From NCBI GenBank assembly GCA_028287545.1, contig JAQBPL010000339.1, positions 1 to 11,626 on the forward strand: DNA of 11,626 nt, read 5' to 3'. The notes beneath the pieces are model-generated. The model was not told the origin of the DNA. It did no database searches and saw nothing but the letters and a program-made list of their open reading frames with translations. This document shows positions 4,097 to 11,543 of this stretch, piece after piece (position 1 is the first letter of the stretch; each line of letters opens with the position of its first letter). Both the position numbers and the translations under genes were made by a program. Origin of the DNA: Vulcanimicrobiota bacterium (lineage in GTDB: Bacteria; Eremiobacterota; Eremiobacteria; Baltobacterales; Baltobacteraceae).

Positions 4097-4140
4097 GTCA
4101 CCCTGAGCGGTCCCTCTGTCACCCTGAGCTTGTCGAAGGG
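4097..4140. repeat. Interspersed short repeat, two partial copies (TCACCCTGAGCTTGTCGAAG family)
   Basis: Two direct copies of GTCACCCTGAGC start at 4097 and 4118. The second continues as TTGTCGAAGGG and forms an imperfect palindrome. This string is a familiar interspersed repeat in many high-GC and environmental bacteria; that is general knowledge and was not searched. Read on the minus strand, it supplies the last codons (PSTSSG plus TGA) of the gltX-like frame. It also supplies the false N-terminal extension of cysS. Copy number elsewhere in this genome cannot be seen from the window. Confidence 0.7.
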
Positions 4141-5546
4141 CCAGGCGGCGTGGGCTGGATCGTTTCGAAGGGCACGCCGCCGGGGCCGTACTTGATCGGT
4201 TCGAGCCCCCGGCCGTGCAGGATGTGCGAGCTGACCGCGCCGATCCGAATCATGATGCGGTCGTGCCCGAGCAGCGGAAAGAGCAGCGCGAGCGGCGGTC
4301 CGTCGTGCGACCCGGTGATCGCCATGCGCACGGCCGCGAACGCGTCATTCGGCGCCAAGCCGAACTCTTTCGCGATCTCCGGCAGGTCTGCGCCGAGCGG
4401 CAAGCCGCGCAGTTCCGGCTGGGCATCGACGTATTGCGAGTCCGCGTCGAGAAAGAACAACACGTGCCGATTGCGCAGCCGCTCGAGCTACAGCGCGGGC
4501 AGCGTGACCGCTTCTTCACGCAGCTTCGCGATCTCGTCGACCGCTTCACGCAGCGTGTGGAGTTCGCCGCCGTACGCATCGAGAAACGTCTCGATCCAGC
4601 GGCCCGCCGCATCCGGCACCGGATCCTCGAGCAGGCCGTAGCGTTGCATCCACTCGGCCACCAGCGCGTGATAACGGTCGCGCGGAAGCGCGCGCAGCGC
4701 GCGGCCGTTGAACGCGCGCAGCCGGGCACGGTCGTGATGCGACGGAGCGTGGCCGACCCGGTCGAGCGAGAACAGCGGGGCGAGCTCGTCGAGGGTGAAG
4801 GCTTCGCGTGCATCGGGCGCCGACCAGCCCAGCAGCGCGAGGTGCTCGATCACCGCCTCCGGCAGGTAGCCGGCGCGCCGGAGCGCGCCGATGTCGTCCG
4901 CATCGGCAGGACCCGGCTCGCCGACGAGAACCGGAGCGGTGTGCGCGTAATGCGGCGGCTGATAGCCGAGCCCGCGGGCGAGGAGTATCTGGCGCGCCGT
5001 GGACTCGAAGTGCTCGTCGTCGCGCAGCACCAGGTCGATGCGCATCGTCGCGTCGTCGACCGCCGTTGCGAGGTTTGAGGATGGGGCGCCGTCGGCTTTG
5101 CGGACGACGAAGTCCGAGATGGCCGCGTGGTCGAACGCGACGTCGCCCTTGATGAGATCGTGGACCACCGTCGCGCCGGGCGGCACGCGAAACCACAGCG
5201 CGCCGTCTCGCTCGTAGGCCCCGCCGTTTTCGATCAGTCGGTCGAGGTGGTCGCGGTAGATCGCGGCGCGTTCAGAACGCCGATACGGCCCGAAGGGACC
5301 GCCGACGTCGGGGCCCTCGTCCCAGACTAGCCCGAGCCAGCGGAGGTCGCCCAGCAGCGCACCCTCGTCCACCGCACCGCCATCGACGAGCTGCGCATCG
5401 GGGAAGCGCACGATGAACTGGCCCGCGCTTCGGCGCGCAACGAGCCAATTGAAGAGCGCGGTTCGCGCTGCTCCGATGGGCAGTGTCCGTTGCGCGCGCG
5501 GTTCGAACCGCGCGCGCAACGGTCGGTCAAGGTCGAGACGATCCAC
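4119..5546 (-). pseudogene. gltX: Glutamyl-tRNA synthetase-like gene with lost active-site motifs and an internal TAG
   Basis: The fold is clearly class Ib GluRS: ARTALFNWLVARR (27-39), LRWLGLVWDEGPDVGGPFGP (68-87), TVVHDLIKGDVAFD (126-139), AGYLPEAVIEHLALLGWS (225-242). Past the stop, MAITGSHDGPPLALLFPLLG is the usual C-terminal signature. However, the catalytic signatures are gone. APSPTGxLHIG has become EPRAQRTLPIG (15-25), with the HIGH His now Pro23. RIEDTD has become RFPDAQ (47-52). The Y of the TYN/H segment is Ser157. KLSKR is missing, with GEPGPADADDIGALR (209-223) in its place. About 35 residues of the insertion after GGAY are absent. Codon 353 is TAG (4490-4488), yet the same frame stays homologous for 122 more codons. 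The first start after an in-frame TGA (5600-5598) is GTG 5546, with no good Shine-Dalgarno. It is either a decaying gene or a non-catalytic GluRS paralog. The organism should encode a working GluRS elsewhere. Confidence 0.85.
5487..5522. repeat. 36-bp perfect palindrome over the start of the gltX-like gene
   Basis: Two 18-base arms, CCGTTGCGCGCGCGGTTC and its exact complement, meet with no spacer at 5504/5505; no pair is mismatched. On the minus strand the first arm encodes residues PLRARF and the second EPRAQR of the gltX-like protein. The second arm sits exactly where GluRS should read APSPTG. It may be a mutational product (template switch) or a regulatory or structured site between the divergent regulator and gltX. 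Confidence 0.9.
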
Positions 5547-5601
5547 CCGGCCAACATCGTCCCCCGCACCGAGGTGTTCCTCCGGCGCGGGGCGGCGTCA
5601 G

Positions 5602-5781
5602 CTACTTGGCTTCTTCGTCTTCCTCCTCGTCGCCCTCGGGGACTTCGGCGGGCTCAGGACGGCCCGGAGGCGTGATGTTGGCGAGAATGGTCGGTCGGTC
5701 GAGCAATTCAAGAGGCATGCGGCCGCGGTTCGCGCTTGTTTTCACAAACCATGCTTCGGCGCGGCCCTTAACGAAGATCAA
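5602..5781 (-). CDS. Possible small acidic-tailed protein (59 residues), unrecognised
   Basis: The frame upstream of the gltX-like gene encodes IFVKGRAEAWFVKTSANRGR, then MPLELLDRPTILANITPPG, and ends in the strongly acidic tail EGDEEEDEEAK before TAG (5604-5602). Codon third positions and the acidic tail look like real coding rather than a shadow. No family is recognised. The start is the weak point. GGAGGT (5799-5794) is an excellent ribosome binding site, but the nearest in-frame start, TTG at 5781-5779, is 12 bases beyond it, which is long. A longer frame continues to 6180, but there it is only antisense to the regulator gene. The TTG lies 6 bases from the GTG proposed for the divergent regulator, so one of the two starts may be wrong. 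It lies 55 bases before the gltX-like GTG on the same strand. Confidence 0.4.
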   Translation of the reverse strand: MIFVKGRAEAWFVKTSANRGRMPLELLDRPTILANITPPGRPEPAEVPEGDEEEDEEAK

Positions 5782-5787
5782 ACGGAC

Positions 5788-8520
5788 GTGATTACCTCCG
5801 GCGTACTTTGTCGGGAATTTTTCGGGCGTTCCGCAGAAATGGCGTACCTGAGCGATCGGGTGTTTTCGCGAAATCAGGAGCGTGGCGGCGGCGTCGTGCT
5901 CCGGGGCTCGGCCGGCATCGGAAAGTCGCGGCTGGTAGACGAGTTCGTCTCGGACGTTCGCTCGATGAAGGCCCGCGTCGGCGTCGGACGTGCGCGCGAA
6001 TTTGCCAACGCGCCGTATCTCGCAGTGGATGAAGCCCTGCGCGAGCTTGACGTCGAGCTGGAGCTCGGTCTTGCCGCTGACGTCGATCAGCCGCAACGAT
6101 TCGCCGCGATCGCACAGGCAATCCAGACGCATGCAGAGCGCGCGGGCGGCGTCGATGTGCTCGTCGTCGAGGACCTGCATTGGGCCGACCGCGGAACGAT
6201 CGAGCTCATTCGATTCTTGGCCGTGCGCCTAAAGAACACGCCCGCGTTGGTCGTCGCGACCTATCGTAATGACGCCGTCGAGGCGGACCCAATCCGCGCT
6301 GCGGCGTTGGAAGCGCTCGAGCGCGACGCCGGCTACGTGGTCACACTCGAAGCGTTGCCGCCCGCGATCATCGACAAGGTGCTTTCCGCGGCACTCAGCG
6401 GCGTCGGCGTGAAGTTGCCGCTGCAGACATTGGCACGCGTCAGCGAGCTTTCCGATGGCCGTCCGCTGTTCGCCGAGGAACTGCTGCGTGGCGTTCTGGA
6501 ACGCCTCGACAGAGACGGCACGGCTGAGCCGACCGTTCCGACCAGCATCCGAGCCAGCGTTCGCGAACGATTTTTAGCGCTGAACGACGTCGATCGGGAC
6601 GTGCTGCTGCACGCGGCAGTCATCGGCCGTCGGTTCTCCGCGTCGTTCGTCGCTGCGCTCGTTGGGTGCCCGGCGGCGACAGTCTATTCCGCGCTCCGGC
6701 GCGCCCGCTCGCTACAGCTCGTTGAGGAACAGAACGATGCGGACGGTGACGGATTCGCCTTCCGACATGCGCTCACGCGTGAAGCGATCTACGCCGAGCT
6801 GCTGCGGGCGGAGTCGCGGCTGCTGCACCGGCGGGTCGCACACGAACTGACGCGAAGCGAACCGCTCGACGTTGCCGCCGTCGCGGAGCACACGTGGCGC
6901 GGCGGTGACGACGCGGCCGGCGTCTGGAACGAACGCGCCGGGGACGAGGCTCTGGCGGTACAGGCATATGCTGACGCGGCGGTCGCATTCGAACGCGCCT
7001 ATACTGTCTCGCAAGATCCCGAGGTGCGGGCGCGCGTCAGCGTGCGCGTCGCGGAGGCGCTCTACGCCGTCGGCCAAACCGAGCGCACCGCGGAATGGTA
7101 TGCAACGAGCGCGAGCGATCACGCTGAAGCAGGCCTGACCCGGCGTGCCGCGAGCCTGCGCCTGCGGCATGCGCGGGTCCTCGTCGAAGCAGGCCGCTAC
7201 GCGGATGGATTGTTCGAGGCCGATCGCATTGCCACCGCGCCCGGCATCGACTGGGAGCTGCGGTTCGAAGCCGACGTTATGGTCGCCGGGTTGCTCGCGG
7301 CTACTGGTCGTCCGGCCGAGGCGCTGGATCGACTGGAACGCGCACCTCGAGAGGGCTCCCACCCCGACGCTGCGGTGCGCGCGCGGTACGACGGCACCCT
7401 CGCCTGCGCGTTCTATCTCCTCGGCCGGGCGTCGGAAGCACGAAGCCGGTTCGTCGAGGCTGCTGAAGGCGCGAACCTTGCCGGCGACCTTGATCTCGTA
7501 GTACGCACGCTGAACAACTGGGGGAACCTCGAACTGGGATACGGCCATCTGGGCCGGGGACGTACCCTCTACGCCGAAGCCCTCGCAGCCGCCGAAGAGA
7601 TGAAGAATCTCCGCCAAGTCGCTTTGCTCGCACAGAATGGCGGCCTCGGGGCCGTTCTTGCCGGTGACCTAGCGGAGGCCCGCAGTTTGCTCGCGCGCTC
7701 CAATGCAATCGAGCACGGCGTCAGCCGTGTGGTGACCTGGTCGTCTGCGATCGAGCTGCGCCTGAAGCAATTGGTCGGCGAACCAGACCCGGTCGCGCTG
7801 GAACGCTCCATCGCTGCCCTGGAGAAGGCATTGCGCGTGAACGATCTCTCCACGGGGGCCCTGCTCGCCGCCGTGATCGCCTACGGGTATGCCGCAGACG
7901 GAAGGCTCGTCGAAGCGGCCGACGTCGCGGGGAGTGTCGTCGCCATTCTCGACGTCGCCGAGCCGCCGTACTGGCTGCTCGATGCCGCGGGGCGCTTCGG
8001 GGAGCCGATTGTCCGCGACCGCGCTCGGGCCTTGTTGCGCGAGATCGCGGAGCGCGAGGACGCGGTCCCGGCACGCGGTTTTCTCGCTATGGCTGATGCC
8101 CGCGCGGCCGCCCGGGCGCGGCGGCGCGAGGATGCTGTCGGCTATGCCGAACTCGCTGTTTCAGCGTTCCGCGAAGCGGGCTGGAACCTCGATCTCGCCT
8201 ACGCGCTGGAACTCGGCGGTCGCACCGCCGAGGCGGTCGCAGCATTCGAGGCTGCCGGGGCGGTCGGCGAGGTTCGACGGCTTACGGCAACCGAGAGCGC
8301 ACCGGCACGTCGCCGGGGCGAAGCGACCCTGACGGCGCGCGAACGGGAGATCGCCTCGATGGTCTCCGTGGGGCGCAGTACCCGAGCGATCGCGGAAGGC
8401 CTGGTGATCTCCGAGCGGACCGTCGAGACGCACATCGCATCCGTCTACCGCAAGTTCGGCGTCGCCAGCCGTCGCGAACTCGCCGACCTACTCGCCCGTG
8501 CGGGCACTGCCTCCGGCTAA
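5788..8520 (+). CDS. Large ATP-binding LuxR-family transcriptional regulator (LAL/MalT-like)
   Basis: This 910-residue regulator has three parts. The N-terminal AAA-type ATPase opens with the typical FFGRSAEMAYL. It has Walker A GSAGIGKS (40-47) and Walker B VLVVEDLHWAD (124-134), and HALTREAIYAELL is typical of the region after the ATPase. A long alpha-helical, alanine-rich middle (about 360-830) fits TPR-like repeats. The C-terminal LuxR helix-turn-helix runs from LTAREREIASMV (848) through RAIAEGLVISERTVETHIAS to VYRKFGVASRRELADLL. Family members sense a ligand through the middle region and activate transcription in an ATP-dependent way; the signal here is unknown. GTG 5788 is chosen because the conserved FxGRxxE segment starts 13 codons later. 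ATG 5839 would remove it, and the frame further upstream (to 5413) is antisense to gltX. No clear Shine-Dalgarno. It is on the opposite strand to the surrounding operon. Confidence 0.88.
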   Translation: MITSGVLCREFFGRSAEMAYLSDRVFSRNQERGGGVVLRGSAGIGKSRLVDEFVSDVRSMKARVGVGRAREFANAPYLAVDEALRELDVELELGLAADVDQPQRFAAIAQAIQTHAERAGGVDVLVVEDLHWADRGTIELIRFLAVRLKNTPALVVATYRNDAVEADPIRAAALEALERDAGYVVTLEALPPAIIDKVLSAALSGVGVKLPLQTLARVSELSDGRPLFAEELLRGVLERLDRDGTAEPTVPTSIRASVRERFLALNDVDRDVLLHAAVIGRRFSASFVAALVGCPAATVYSALRRARSLQLVEEQNDADGDGFAFRHALTREAIYAELLRAESRLLHRRVAHELTRSEPLDVAAVAEHTWRGGDDAAGVWNERAGDEALAVQAYADAAVAFERAYTVSQDPEVRARVSVRVAEALYAVGQTERTAEWYATSASDHAEAGLTRRAASLRLRHARVLVEAGRYADGLFEADRIATAPGIDWELRFEADVMVAGLLAATGRPAEALDRLERAPREGSHPDAAVRARYDGTLACAFYLLGRASEARSRFVEAAEGANLAGDLDLVVRTLNNWGNLELGYGHLGRGRTLYAEALAAAEEMKNLRQVALLAQNGGLGAVLAGDLAEARSLLARSNAIEHGVSRVVTWSSAIELRLKQLVGEPDPVALERSIAALEKALRVNDLSTGALLAAVIAYGYAADGRLVEAADVAGSVVAILDVAEPPYWLLDAAGRFGEPIVRDRARALLREIAEREDAVPARGFLAMADARAAARARRREDAVGYAELAVSAFREAGWNLDLAYALELGGRTAEAVAAFEAAGAVGEVRRLTATESAPARRRGEATLTAREREIASMVSVGRSTRAIAEGLVISERTVETHIASVYRKFGVASRRELADLLARAGTASG

Positions 8521-8971: not shown

Positions 8972-9475
8972 TCAGGTAGGTTTCGGCCCCATCGCTTCGA
9001 CCAGCACGACCGCGTAGGCGGCGATGCCGGTGCCGTCGCCGGTGTAGCCGAGGCCTTCGCTCGTCTTGGCTTTCACGCTGACGCGCGATGTCTCGAGGCA
9101 GAGCACGTCGGCGATCGCATCGCGCATCGCGCCGACATACGGTGCGAGCTTCGGCAGCTGGACGACGACCGTCGAGTCGATGTTGGCGATCGTCCAGCCG
9201 TGGCGCACGGCAAGTTCGTGACACGCCGCGAGCAGCCGCAGCGAGTCGGCGCCCTTCCACTGCGGATCGCTATCGGGGAAGTGCGCGCCGAGATCGCCCT
9301 GTGCGCACGCGCCGAGCAGCGCGTCGCAGATCGCGTGCGTCAGCACGTCGGCATCGCTGTGCCCGAGCGGCCCCTTCTCGAACGGAATCCGCACGCCACC
9401 TAAAATAAACGGCCGCCCTTCGACCAAACGATGCACATCGAACCCATGCCCAACACGAGACTTCGGTTCGTGCAT
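8972..9475 (-). CDS. ispF: 2-C-methyl-D-erythritol 2,4-cyclodiphosphate synthase
   Basis: This 167-residue enzyme of the MEP isoprenoid pathway makes 2-C-methyl-D-erythritol 2,4-cyclodiphosphate and releases CMP. The start is ATG at 9475-9473 ([20 protein letters not shown]). The metal ligands are Asp13 and His15 in GFDVH and His47 in DVLTHAICDALLGA. GPLGHSDAD (35-43) is the family signature, and KAKTSEGLGYTGDGTGIAAY is the nucleotide-binding end region. The length matches the family (about 155-165) with a few extra N-terminal residues. The ATG shares one base with the ispD stop (TGATG), so translation is coupled. The longer open frame upstream is only a shadow of ispD. ispF is the last clear gene of the hemW-yacL-ispD-ispF group before the plus-strand insert. 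Confidence 0.96.
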   Translation of the reverse strand: MHEPKSRVGHGFDVHRLVEGRPFILGGVRIPFEKGPLGHSDADVLTHAICDALLGACAQGDLGAHFPDSDPQWKGADSLRLLAACHELAVRHGWTIANIDSTVVVQLPKLAPYVGAMRDAIADVLCLETSRVSVKAKTSEGLGYTGDGTGIAAYAVVLVEAMGPKPT

Positions 9476-10434
9476 CAGTGCTGGCGATCCAATGTCGCGG
9501 GCGTGCGCGGAGCGAGGTGCGAGAGGTGCGCGGTGAAGAGCGCGTCTTCGCCGGCGAGCGCGTGCAGGCGCGTGCCGAAGCCGCGCAATGCGGCGTTCGT
9601 CGCATAGGCGCGGATCACGACGGCGCCGGGCAACTCGCGGTCGATCTCGTCGATCCGCGCGTCGCGCTCTTCGAGCTCGGCCAGCACCGCATCGACCGCG
9701 CGCGCGTCGACGTAGCATTCGACCACGAGGATCTCTTCGTCGCCGATCCCCGGCGCGCGCGCTTGCAGCAGCGCTTCGGCGCGCAGCAGATCGCTCGGGA
9801 GCGTCACCTTGAAATTCTCCGGCGCGCCGCCCACGATCACGACGTCGAGGCCGGCGCGTTCGAGCAACGCCGCATCGTCGGTGGCGGGCGCCGTGCCGTG
9901 CTTGAACGCTTCCGCGTGCGCGCGGCGCAGGTCGCGCGCCGTCGCGAACTGCGGCGTTTGCGCGGCCCACAGCGTCCCGCGGTCGAGCGTGCGCGTGACC
10001 TTGCCGTCGGCATCGGCAACTTTGATCGTGTCGATGACCGGCGTTGCGAGCAGCGAGGCTGTTCCCGGCCGCACCGCACGCATCCCCGCGCGGACGTCCT
10101 GGGCATGCACCAGCGGCCGCGCGCCGTCGTGCACGAGAATCGCCGCGACCTCGTCGGAGAGCGCCTCGATCCCCAACCGCACGCTCGCCTGCCGCTCGTC
10201 ACCGCCGCGCACGACCCGCACGGCGGCGTGACGCACCAGCGGATGCGCCAGCGTCTCCATTCGCGCGACGAACTCCGGCTCGGTCACCACGACCAATTCG
10301 CTGATCTCCGGCATCGAGGCGAACGCCTCGATCGACCACGCAACCATCGGCCGCCCCGCCAATTCAGCAAATTGCTTGGGCCCCCCAAACCGCGTCCCGC
10401 GCCCCGCCGCGACAATAACGGCACCCCAGATCAT
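9475..10434 (-). CDS. ispD: 2-C-methyl-D-erythritol 4-phosphate cytidylyltransferase fused to an EF-G domain V-like C-terminal domain
   Basis: Residues 1-225 are a standard IspD, which joins CTP and MEP to give CDP-methylerythritol. The evidence is [18 protein letters not shown] (5-22, with Arg15 and Lys20 as CTP contacts), [13 protein letters not shown] (77-89), [11 protein letters not shown] (99-109), LWAAQTPQ, and [17 protein letters not shown] (Lys209). Typical IspD proteins end here at about 230 residues. This one runs to 319. The extra 86 residues start [20 protein letters not shown] and include [40 protein letters not shown] and SHLAP. In order and spacing these match EF-G domain V (EFG_C): V-E-V..., RG-x-I..., QVIRAFVPL..., GYATDLRSLTQGRGTFTMxFxHY. 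Start ATG 10434 overlaps the yacL stop by four bases (ATGA), and the stop overlaps the ispF ATG. The role of the added domain is unknown. Confidence 0.93.
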
Positions 10435-11543
10435 AAGCGCACTTTCGGGCGCGCGAAGATCATGCGGCCGGCGTTGGTTTGCAGGGCGCTGGTTACTGCG
10501 ACATCGATAGTCTCGCCGATCAGGCGGCGTCCATTTTCCACGACGATCATCGTTCCGTCGTCCAGATACCCCACGCCTTGGTGCATCTCTCGGCCCTCGC
10601 GGATGACCGCGACCCGCAGCTCGTCGCCGGGGAGCAGCACCGGCTTGACTGCATTGGCGAGCTCGTTGATGTTCAGGACCGTAACTCCCTCGACGAGTGC
10701 GACGCGGTTGAGGTTGTAATCGTTGGTTACCAGCTTCGCGCCGCGCTCTTGCGCGAGACGCACGAGTTTGGCGTCGACCTGGGCGATCTCTTCGGGATCG
10801 CGCTCGACGATCTCGATCGGGACGGTTTCCTGGAGCTTCCCCAGCAATTCGAGCCCGCGGCGTCCGCGCGTCCGTTTGAGCGGATCGGAGCTGTCCGCGA
10901 TCAGCTGCAGTTCGCGCAGCACGAAACGCGGCAGGAGCAGCGGTCCTTCGAGGAAGCCGCTGCGCACGATGTCGAGCACACGGCCGTCGATGATCACCGA
11001 GGTGTCGAGGACTTTCGGCTCGCCGCCGGCCGACGCGCCCGACGAACCCGCGATGCGGGAGAGCGCGACGCGCTGTTTCGCACCGACGCGCGCGCCCAAG
11101 AACGCCGCGAACAGACTGAGCACGAGATAGAGCGCGATCGCGATGTAGCCGCCGGTCGGGCCGGCGAATGCGACGAACTCGAACAGCACGCTCTTCACCA
11201 AGAACGCGACGACGAGGCCGGTGACCAAGCCGATCGCGCCGCCGACGAGTTCGCCCGGCGCGAGCCGGTCGATCGCGCGCTCCATCGCGTGCAGCTCGCG
11301 CTCGAAGAACGTCTGCGCGAGCGGGACGACGAGCACGCCGACGACCGCGCCGACGACCGGTGCCACTACCAGCAGCGTCAGCTGCCAGAACTGGCTTGCG
11401 ACGTGCAGCGAGATCAGCCGCAGATAGGCTTCTTTGCCGAGCAGAAATCCGGTAATGCCGAAGATCCCGACGAAGCTCAGCCGCAGCAGCGCCGTGGACA
11501 GCCGGCGGCCCGGCTCAGTCGGCGAGGAACGCGCCACAGACAT
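10431..11543 (-). CDS. yacL: Membrane-anchored PIN/TRAM-domain protein (YacL family)
   Basis: This 370-residue protein has four probable membrane segments: about 22-36, 55-75, 99-121 and 132-152. A cytoplasmic PIN nuclease-like domain follows (about 176-293), and then a TRAM RNA-binding domain (about 303-365). PIN acidic residues are visible: Asp180 and Asp186 in [16 protein letters not shown], Glu211 in [16 protein letters not shown], Asp257, and Asp275 in [12 protein letters not shown]. The TRAM part includes [20 protein letters not shown] and [16 protein letters not shown]. Family members are thought to be ribonucleases, but the substrate is poorly known. ATG 11543 fits the family N-terminus, with a hydrophilic lead before the first segment. 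No strong Shine-Dalgarno is seen, and the start lies inside the end of hemW, so coupling is likely. The stop overlaps ispD (ATGA). The gene holds its usual position ahead of ispD and ispF. Confidence 0.93.

Follow-up and report, generated by a model that had tools for sequence, protein, structure and literature searches.

The cytidylyltransferase IspD, an essential enzyme of isoprenoid synthesis and a studied inhibitor target, is described both as a monofunctional protein (TIGR00453) and as part of a bifunctional enzyme, IspDF (NF006899), in which IspF is attached at the C-terminal end of IspD. Ferredoxin-like regulatory domains of the ACT type also occur on enzymes. PMC4342817 assigns EFG_C (PF00679), which corresponds to domain V of elongation factor G (EF-G), to the translational GTPases of the EF2 family.

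The 11,626-nucleotide stretch of DNA analysed here, referred to as the window, includes an ispD gene that differs from all of these. Its product resembles monofunctional IspD in having a complete IspD part that scores above the curated cut-off and includes the conserved positions, but it carries an extra C-terminal domain, here called the tail, of about 80 residues. As in IspDF, a second domain occupies the C-terminal place; here, however, that domain resembles EF-G domain V, and a separate, overlapping gene encodes IspF. The tail is related to domain V of EF-G in sequence and in fold, and of the phylum's translation GTPases canonical EF-G is the closest to it. It differs in standing without the GTPase domain and domains II–IV, in the replacement of sarcin-ricin-contact residues, in a new invariant motif D-x-x-[DE]-R-[DE]-L-P together with an invariant R275, and in its location on IspD. 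The way of working proposed for the tail, a small domain of ferredoxin-like fold terminating a biosynthetic enzyme, is also that of the ACT-type domains, but the ancestry of the tail is EF-G, and Pfam scans listed no ACT match for the window protein or for any of the tails; a shared general fold would be possible without a sequence match.

As the preliminary description of this locus had supposed, no account of an IspD-EFG_C fusion was found in the literature searched, most subscription papers and preprints being outside the reach of that search. Automatic labelling does already pair PF01128 with PF00679 on some database proteins, namely 6 of the 120 listed in one search (the best 120 of 199) and 24 of 25 relatives in another. 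The protein is classed here as an IspD bearing a new accessory domain.

Results

Organisation of the ispD locus

The features of the locus are collected in Table 1. The 319 aa frame is read from the minus strand, and a plus-strand reading of bases 9475–10434 as the gene was rejected. The gene is coupled to its neighbours at both ends, as previously reported, with ATGA shared with the PIN-TRAM (yacL-like) gene and TGATG with ispF.

Table 1 Features of the ispD locus, numbered from the first base of the window.
Feature	Position	Strand	Basis
ispD-EFG_C fusion gene, 319 aa plus stop	9475..10434	minus	Open frame; relatives of similar length
IspD cytidylyltransferase part, approximately residues 5–224	9763..10422	minus	PF01128 (5–224), TIGR00453 (5–223), 12 conserved positions
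EF-G domain V-like tail, from residue 231; C-terminal end ragged (about 314–319)	9478..9744	minus	
Tail-specific motif D-x-[IVLF]-[DE]-R-[DE]-L-P, residues 262–269	9628..9651	minus	D262, R266, L268 and P269 in 34/34 aligned tails, not so conserved in 33 EF-G copies
Stretch aligned with the sarcin-ricin-contacting loop of EF-G, residues 291–298, contact residues replaced	9541..9564	minus	
ispF	8972..9475	minus	YgbB/IspF 220.7 bits, TIGR00151; separate gene, overlaps ispD stop (TGATG)
PIN-TRAM protein gene (YacL-like), upstream of ispD	10431..11543	minus	PIN and TRAM matches; overlaps ispD start (ATGA)

The Pfam matches of the protein were confined to IspD/NTP-transferase-type families and EFG_C. 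The scan revealed neither the GTPase domain nor domains II–IV of EF-G, and the ispD chain of the window contains no IspF domain. The IspD part scored 209 bits with PF01128 (cut-off 27) and 218.8 bits with TIGR00453 (cut-off 181.3), in agreement with the earlier view that IspD is complete to about residue 225. It has R15, K20, D103, R106, T136, K138, R152, T160, T185, D186, N207 and K209, which we take to be active-site positions after E. coli IspD. All 12 are kept in the 34 tail-bearing sequences, except for a gap at R15/K20 in one and S or N in place of T185 in four.

Elsewhere in the window, the region of a glutamyl-tRNA synthetase gene (4119–5546, minus strand) is split into two frames. Frame 4488–5546 carries the gltX catalytic part in two stretches and below the NCBIfam cut-off (225.5 versus 289.95 bits), while the separate frame 4119–4463 matches Anticodon_2. 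The usual HIGH/KMSKS-type signatures look degenerate by eye, and the split may represent a frame break, a degenerate paralogue or an assembly error. A large regulator of the AAA-LuxR type (AAA_16 and GerE) lies at 5413–8520 on the plus strand, opposite to the housekeeping cluster.

The tail is homologous to domain V of canonical EF-G

EFG_C covered residues 235–313 with an E-value of 7.3e-5 (23.2 bits) when the whole protein was scanned and 5.1e-6 (26.9 bits) when the tail was scanned alone. Both scores fall short of the Pfam gathering score of 27.9 bits. The family was nevertheless matched by 32 of the 34 aligned tails at E ≤ 0.1, the best at 3.3e-12. Thus the profile check upheld the homology proposed in the preliminary description, but the window copy itself does not reach the gathering score. 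The alternative profile named there, DUF1949 (the C-terminal domain of YigZ), matched none of the 34 tails at E ≤ 0.1 and was rejected.

With phmmer, the window tail alone reached no better than E 0.53 among PDB sequences, so a profile was needed for a match. All 30 rows returned by the profile of the tail family were EF-G, EF-G homologues or mtEFG2. The predicted fold of the tail is confident, with the order beta-alpha-beta-beta-alpha-beta over about 80 residues, and superimposed in a fold search on bacterial EF-G with an rmsd of 1.0–1.7 Å over about 80 columns. When the full-length model, which is poor at approximately residues 130–165, was submitted to Foldseek against the PDB, IspD-type and related cytidylyltransferase structures were found in the best 50 rows listed.

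Profile-profile comparison (hhalign) aligned the tails with the EF-G of the phylum itself over 77 columns (probability 96, E 3.9e-9). The corresponding probabilities were 57.9 for EF-G2-like proteins, 1.1 for LepA and 0.1 for BipA, the four class profiles being of unequal size (34 EF-G, 7 EF-G2-like, 6 LepA and 6 BipA) and their labels having been assigned by eye and partly assumed. Because of this inequality, a reciprocal scan of the phylum genomes with the wide profile A3, built from the window tail and 33 others, is a fairer test of the donor. It returned 35 tails at E ≤ 2.5e-32, followed from 4.4e-9 down by 78 rows that, compared by eye, were all at EF-G-class sites (at least 101 bits to EFG_C). 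LepA, BipA and EF-G2-like proteins were rejected as donors, their matches being weaker than those of EF-G. The tail is homologous to domain V of canonical EF-G, and the identification first made from the single sequence was borne out by the family profiles, the fold search, the profile-profile comparison and the reciprocal scan.

Replaced contact residues and new invariant positions

Residues R660, S661 and Q664 of EF-G are reported in PMC6562825 to contact the sarcin-ricin loop. On our reading of the alignment, they probably correspond to the motif L-R-S-x-T-Q. At these positions the 34 tails have R in none, S in four and Q in none, versus 34, 34 and 33 of the 34 EF-G copies from the phylum. 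As a control, LepA has K, S and K in all six copies and BipA has M or L (three each), T and R in its six, while EF-G2-like proteins have R and T in all seven, with mostly A and one Q at the third position.

Other positions have become fixed in the tails. D262, R266, L268, P269 and R275, which sit in and after the beta2-beta3 turn, are present in 34 of 34 tails and are not conserved so in EF-G (33 of the 34 copies, of equal length, entered this column table). E239, A276 and T301 are likewise invariant in the tails and are common in EF-G. Judged from strand alternation rather than from coordinates, E239, R275 and T301 would lie on the open face of the sheet.

Two lineages (L064, L065, L066, L154, L158, L159, L161 and L170) have tails whose final strand is shorter or has lost the S-H motif, and in three genomes (G064, G117 and G122) the wide profile extends past a TGA stop.

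Distribution and conservation

IspD was found in 144 of the 149 genomes of the phylum. The 143 loci parsed, a few fragmentary frames remaining unparsed, include four second copies of the same gene and represent 139 distinct ispD genes, 105 of them without a tail. A narrow tail profile matched 35 of the 149 genomes, once in each, and the wide profile A3 matched the same 35. The tail is visibly on IspD in 34 of these, and in the other (G006) it sits at the edge of a contig, away from any IspD core. Between the NFKVT-type motif and the stop, genes with a tail match have 102–120 residues versus 17–50 in those without, the exception being G017 with 187, where, unlike in the other ispD frames parsed, the frame continues into IspF.

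Searching a protein database with the tail yielded 797 candidates, 199 of them at E ≤ 1, and the best 120 of the latter, which were listed, all bear the PF01128 label and are mostly of 280–329 aa. One of the relatives (P0064, WPS_14190, 317 aa) is named from Vulcanimicrobium alpinum, whose phylum is Vulcanimicrobiota in NCBI; the records of the loci are titled Eremiobacterota or, once, WPS-2. No tail was recognised outside the phylum in these searches, which were word-based and of limited sensitivity, with 120 of 199 matches listed and most rows lacking an organism name; as far as searched, the tail is a lineage-specific addition, one of the possibilities raised at the outset.

In 13 hand-chosen pairs dN/dS was 0–0.33 for the tail and 0.08–0.49 for the core. 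Mean identity over 135 random pairs was 0.61 for the core and 0.47 for the tail, with a correlation of 0.88. The tail is under purifying selection. Its presence in 35 genomes together with the low dN/dS rules out the chance read-through that had already been considered improbable, and a frameshift near residue 230, the error that the preliminary description had envisaged, is contradicted by the same recurrence. Indeed, frameshift, misassembly or reading beyond the IspD stop as the source of the tail has a practically negligible probability: the sub-threshold Pfam score of the window copy is all that speaks for such an artefact, and it is refuted by conservation, with the 199 database matches, the V. 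alpinum homologue and the confident fold pointing the same way.

Nineteen short proteins carry the domain, 15 of them without an IspD label. Seven of the nineteen, and P0072, were inspected and seem to be predictions from an internal start within a broken or truncated ispD gene. P0148, P0150, P0155 and P0162 contain little beyond the domain and are predicted on long contigs. The short proteins may result from such internal starts in broken ispD genes or may represent a genuinely free-standing domain. A tail-bearing IspD named from Candidatus Sulfotelmatobacter (P0095) has the same C-terminal half as L048 from a genome of this phylum (G129) and is possibly a misnamed MAG.

Origin and losses

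A tree of 87 domain V sequences, which has few columns and was built by a quick method, separates the tails from all the other sequences by a branch with SH-aLRT 100. Mapped on the IspD core tree, tail presence changes 7 times in 138 rows, at least 4 of these changes being forced by well-supported branches. In the inner clade of 93 rows there are 9 changes, at least 3 of them forced. Six tail-less relatives (L148, L128, L147, L141, L080 and L126) are nested among tail-bearing ones, which indicates that the domain can be dispensed with. A six-frame scan beside ispD in these six loci detected no decayed tail (best E 0.31), the reading that they hold such remnants was rejected, and ispF directly follows ispD in all six; the losses look clean. 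From the trees, one fusion followed by several losses seems the likeliest course, and it fits best because the tails form a single clade and share residues that are not conserved in EF-G.

A core position associated with the tail

Among approximately 224 core columns, R167, with which the helix after the QTPQ motif begins, ranks second by mutual information with the tail. It occurs in 24 of 34 tail-bearing rows versus none of 59 tail-less rows; it is absent from the six nested tail-less rows and from 10 of the 34 tail-bearing ones, including all six of the L066 group. Three well-supported independent pairs were available, in which 1.8 changed in the same direction, 0 in the opposite one and 1.2 showed no difference (median p 0.5). 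With so few pairs, R167 gives a hint that the tail may pack near this helix.

Discussion

The course of events that we favour, and hold to be probable by a modest measure, is that a single fusion, in an ancestral member of the Eremiobacterota/Vulcanimicrobiota, joined a copy of canonical EF-G domain V to the C-terminal end of IspD, the lineage's own factor being the most likely source. The fusion would have been placed between ispD and ispF with their coupling unbroken, and the tail subsequently lost several times. Where retained, the tail would be an accessory domain of ferredoxin-like fold that works in cis. It would most likely pack against the IspD dimer, perhaps close to the helix that follows QTPQ, and tune the stability, assembly or activity of IspD rather than serve the ribosome. 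Such a structural or regulatory module is favoured over a ribosome anchor on the replaced contact residues, the new invariant residues and the R167 hint taken together. Its presence on IspD wherever the context is visible speaks for a role in cis, whereas the nested tail-less relatives and the greater variability of the tail relative to the core count against this explanation. Within it, a regulatory or oligomerisation role is our best guess. Rather more tentatively, and with the balance somewhat against it, the tail with its D262/R266/R275 cluster may form a site for allostery or docking which, by sensing either an intermediate of the pathway or a partner, sets the flux of the MEP pathway in the phylum.

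The main rival is that IspD uses the tail to dock to IspF, or to IspE, in a non-covalent equivalent of the covalently fused IspDF. The tail does occupy the site where IspF attaches in IspDF enzymes, ispF directly follows in 34 of the 34 tail-bearing loci examined, and the IspDF-type frame of G017 (L142) belongs to the same phylum. However, ispF also directly follows in 78 of 105 tail-less loci, so that this neighbourhood is independent of the tail, and PMC5821942 reports no complex of IspD, IspE and IspF in vitro for E. coli and B. subtilis, calling the question controversial; docking appears rather unlikely. A purely structural relic, that is, an accidental fusion kept since the folding of IspD came to need it and without regulation, would accord with the patchy losses, with the erosion of the final strand in L064, L065 and the L066 group, and with a tail that diverges faster than the core. 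This too is unlikely, given the low dN/dS and the newly invariant polar residues D262, R266 and R275.

The link to ribosomes suggested in the preliminary description has become less likely. On this explanation the tail would still bind the ribosome, or an rRNA or protein site of the GTPase centre, and tie isoprenoid synthesis to translation, as its fold and ancestry and the residues shared with EF-G (E239, A276 and T301) would allow. Against it stand the near absence of R660, S661 and Q664 from the tails, the S or T of position 661, which all 53 translation-GTPase copies compared have and 5 of the 34 tails keep, and a mean net charge of -6.5 versus -2.9 in EF-G. The evidence is moderate, since LepA and BipA bind ribosomes and also depart from the R660/S661/Q664 pattern, so that the replaced contacts alone do not exclude the ribosome. 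The charge is no firmer proof, because LepA is itself acidic (-4.8) and BipA nearly lysine-free (mean count 0.2). Both arguments, from lost contacts to no ribosome and from an acidic, lysine-poor surface to no RNA binding, are weakened by these controls. Taking the residues together, the tail has probably lost ribosome binding, and its retention seems quite improbable.

V. alpinum is, according to the title of PMC9758169, the first cultivated member of the phylum, and it carries the tail, so the role of the domain is directly testable. EFG_C detached from the remainder of its factor and carried by an essential isoprenoid enzyme represents a clean natural case of domain exaptation from the translation machinery, with the domain under selection and bearing new invariant residues. 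The fusion suggests that IspD can gain an added C-terminal domain for control or assembly. If the role in pathway flux proposed above is true, the ribosome-facing domain of a translation factor would have been recruited for metabolic control.
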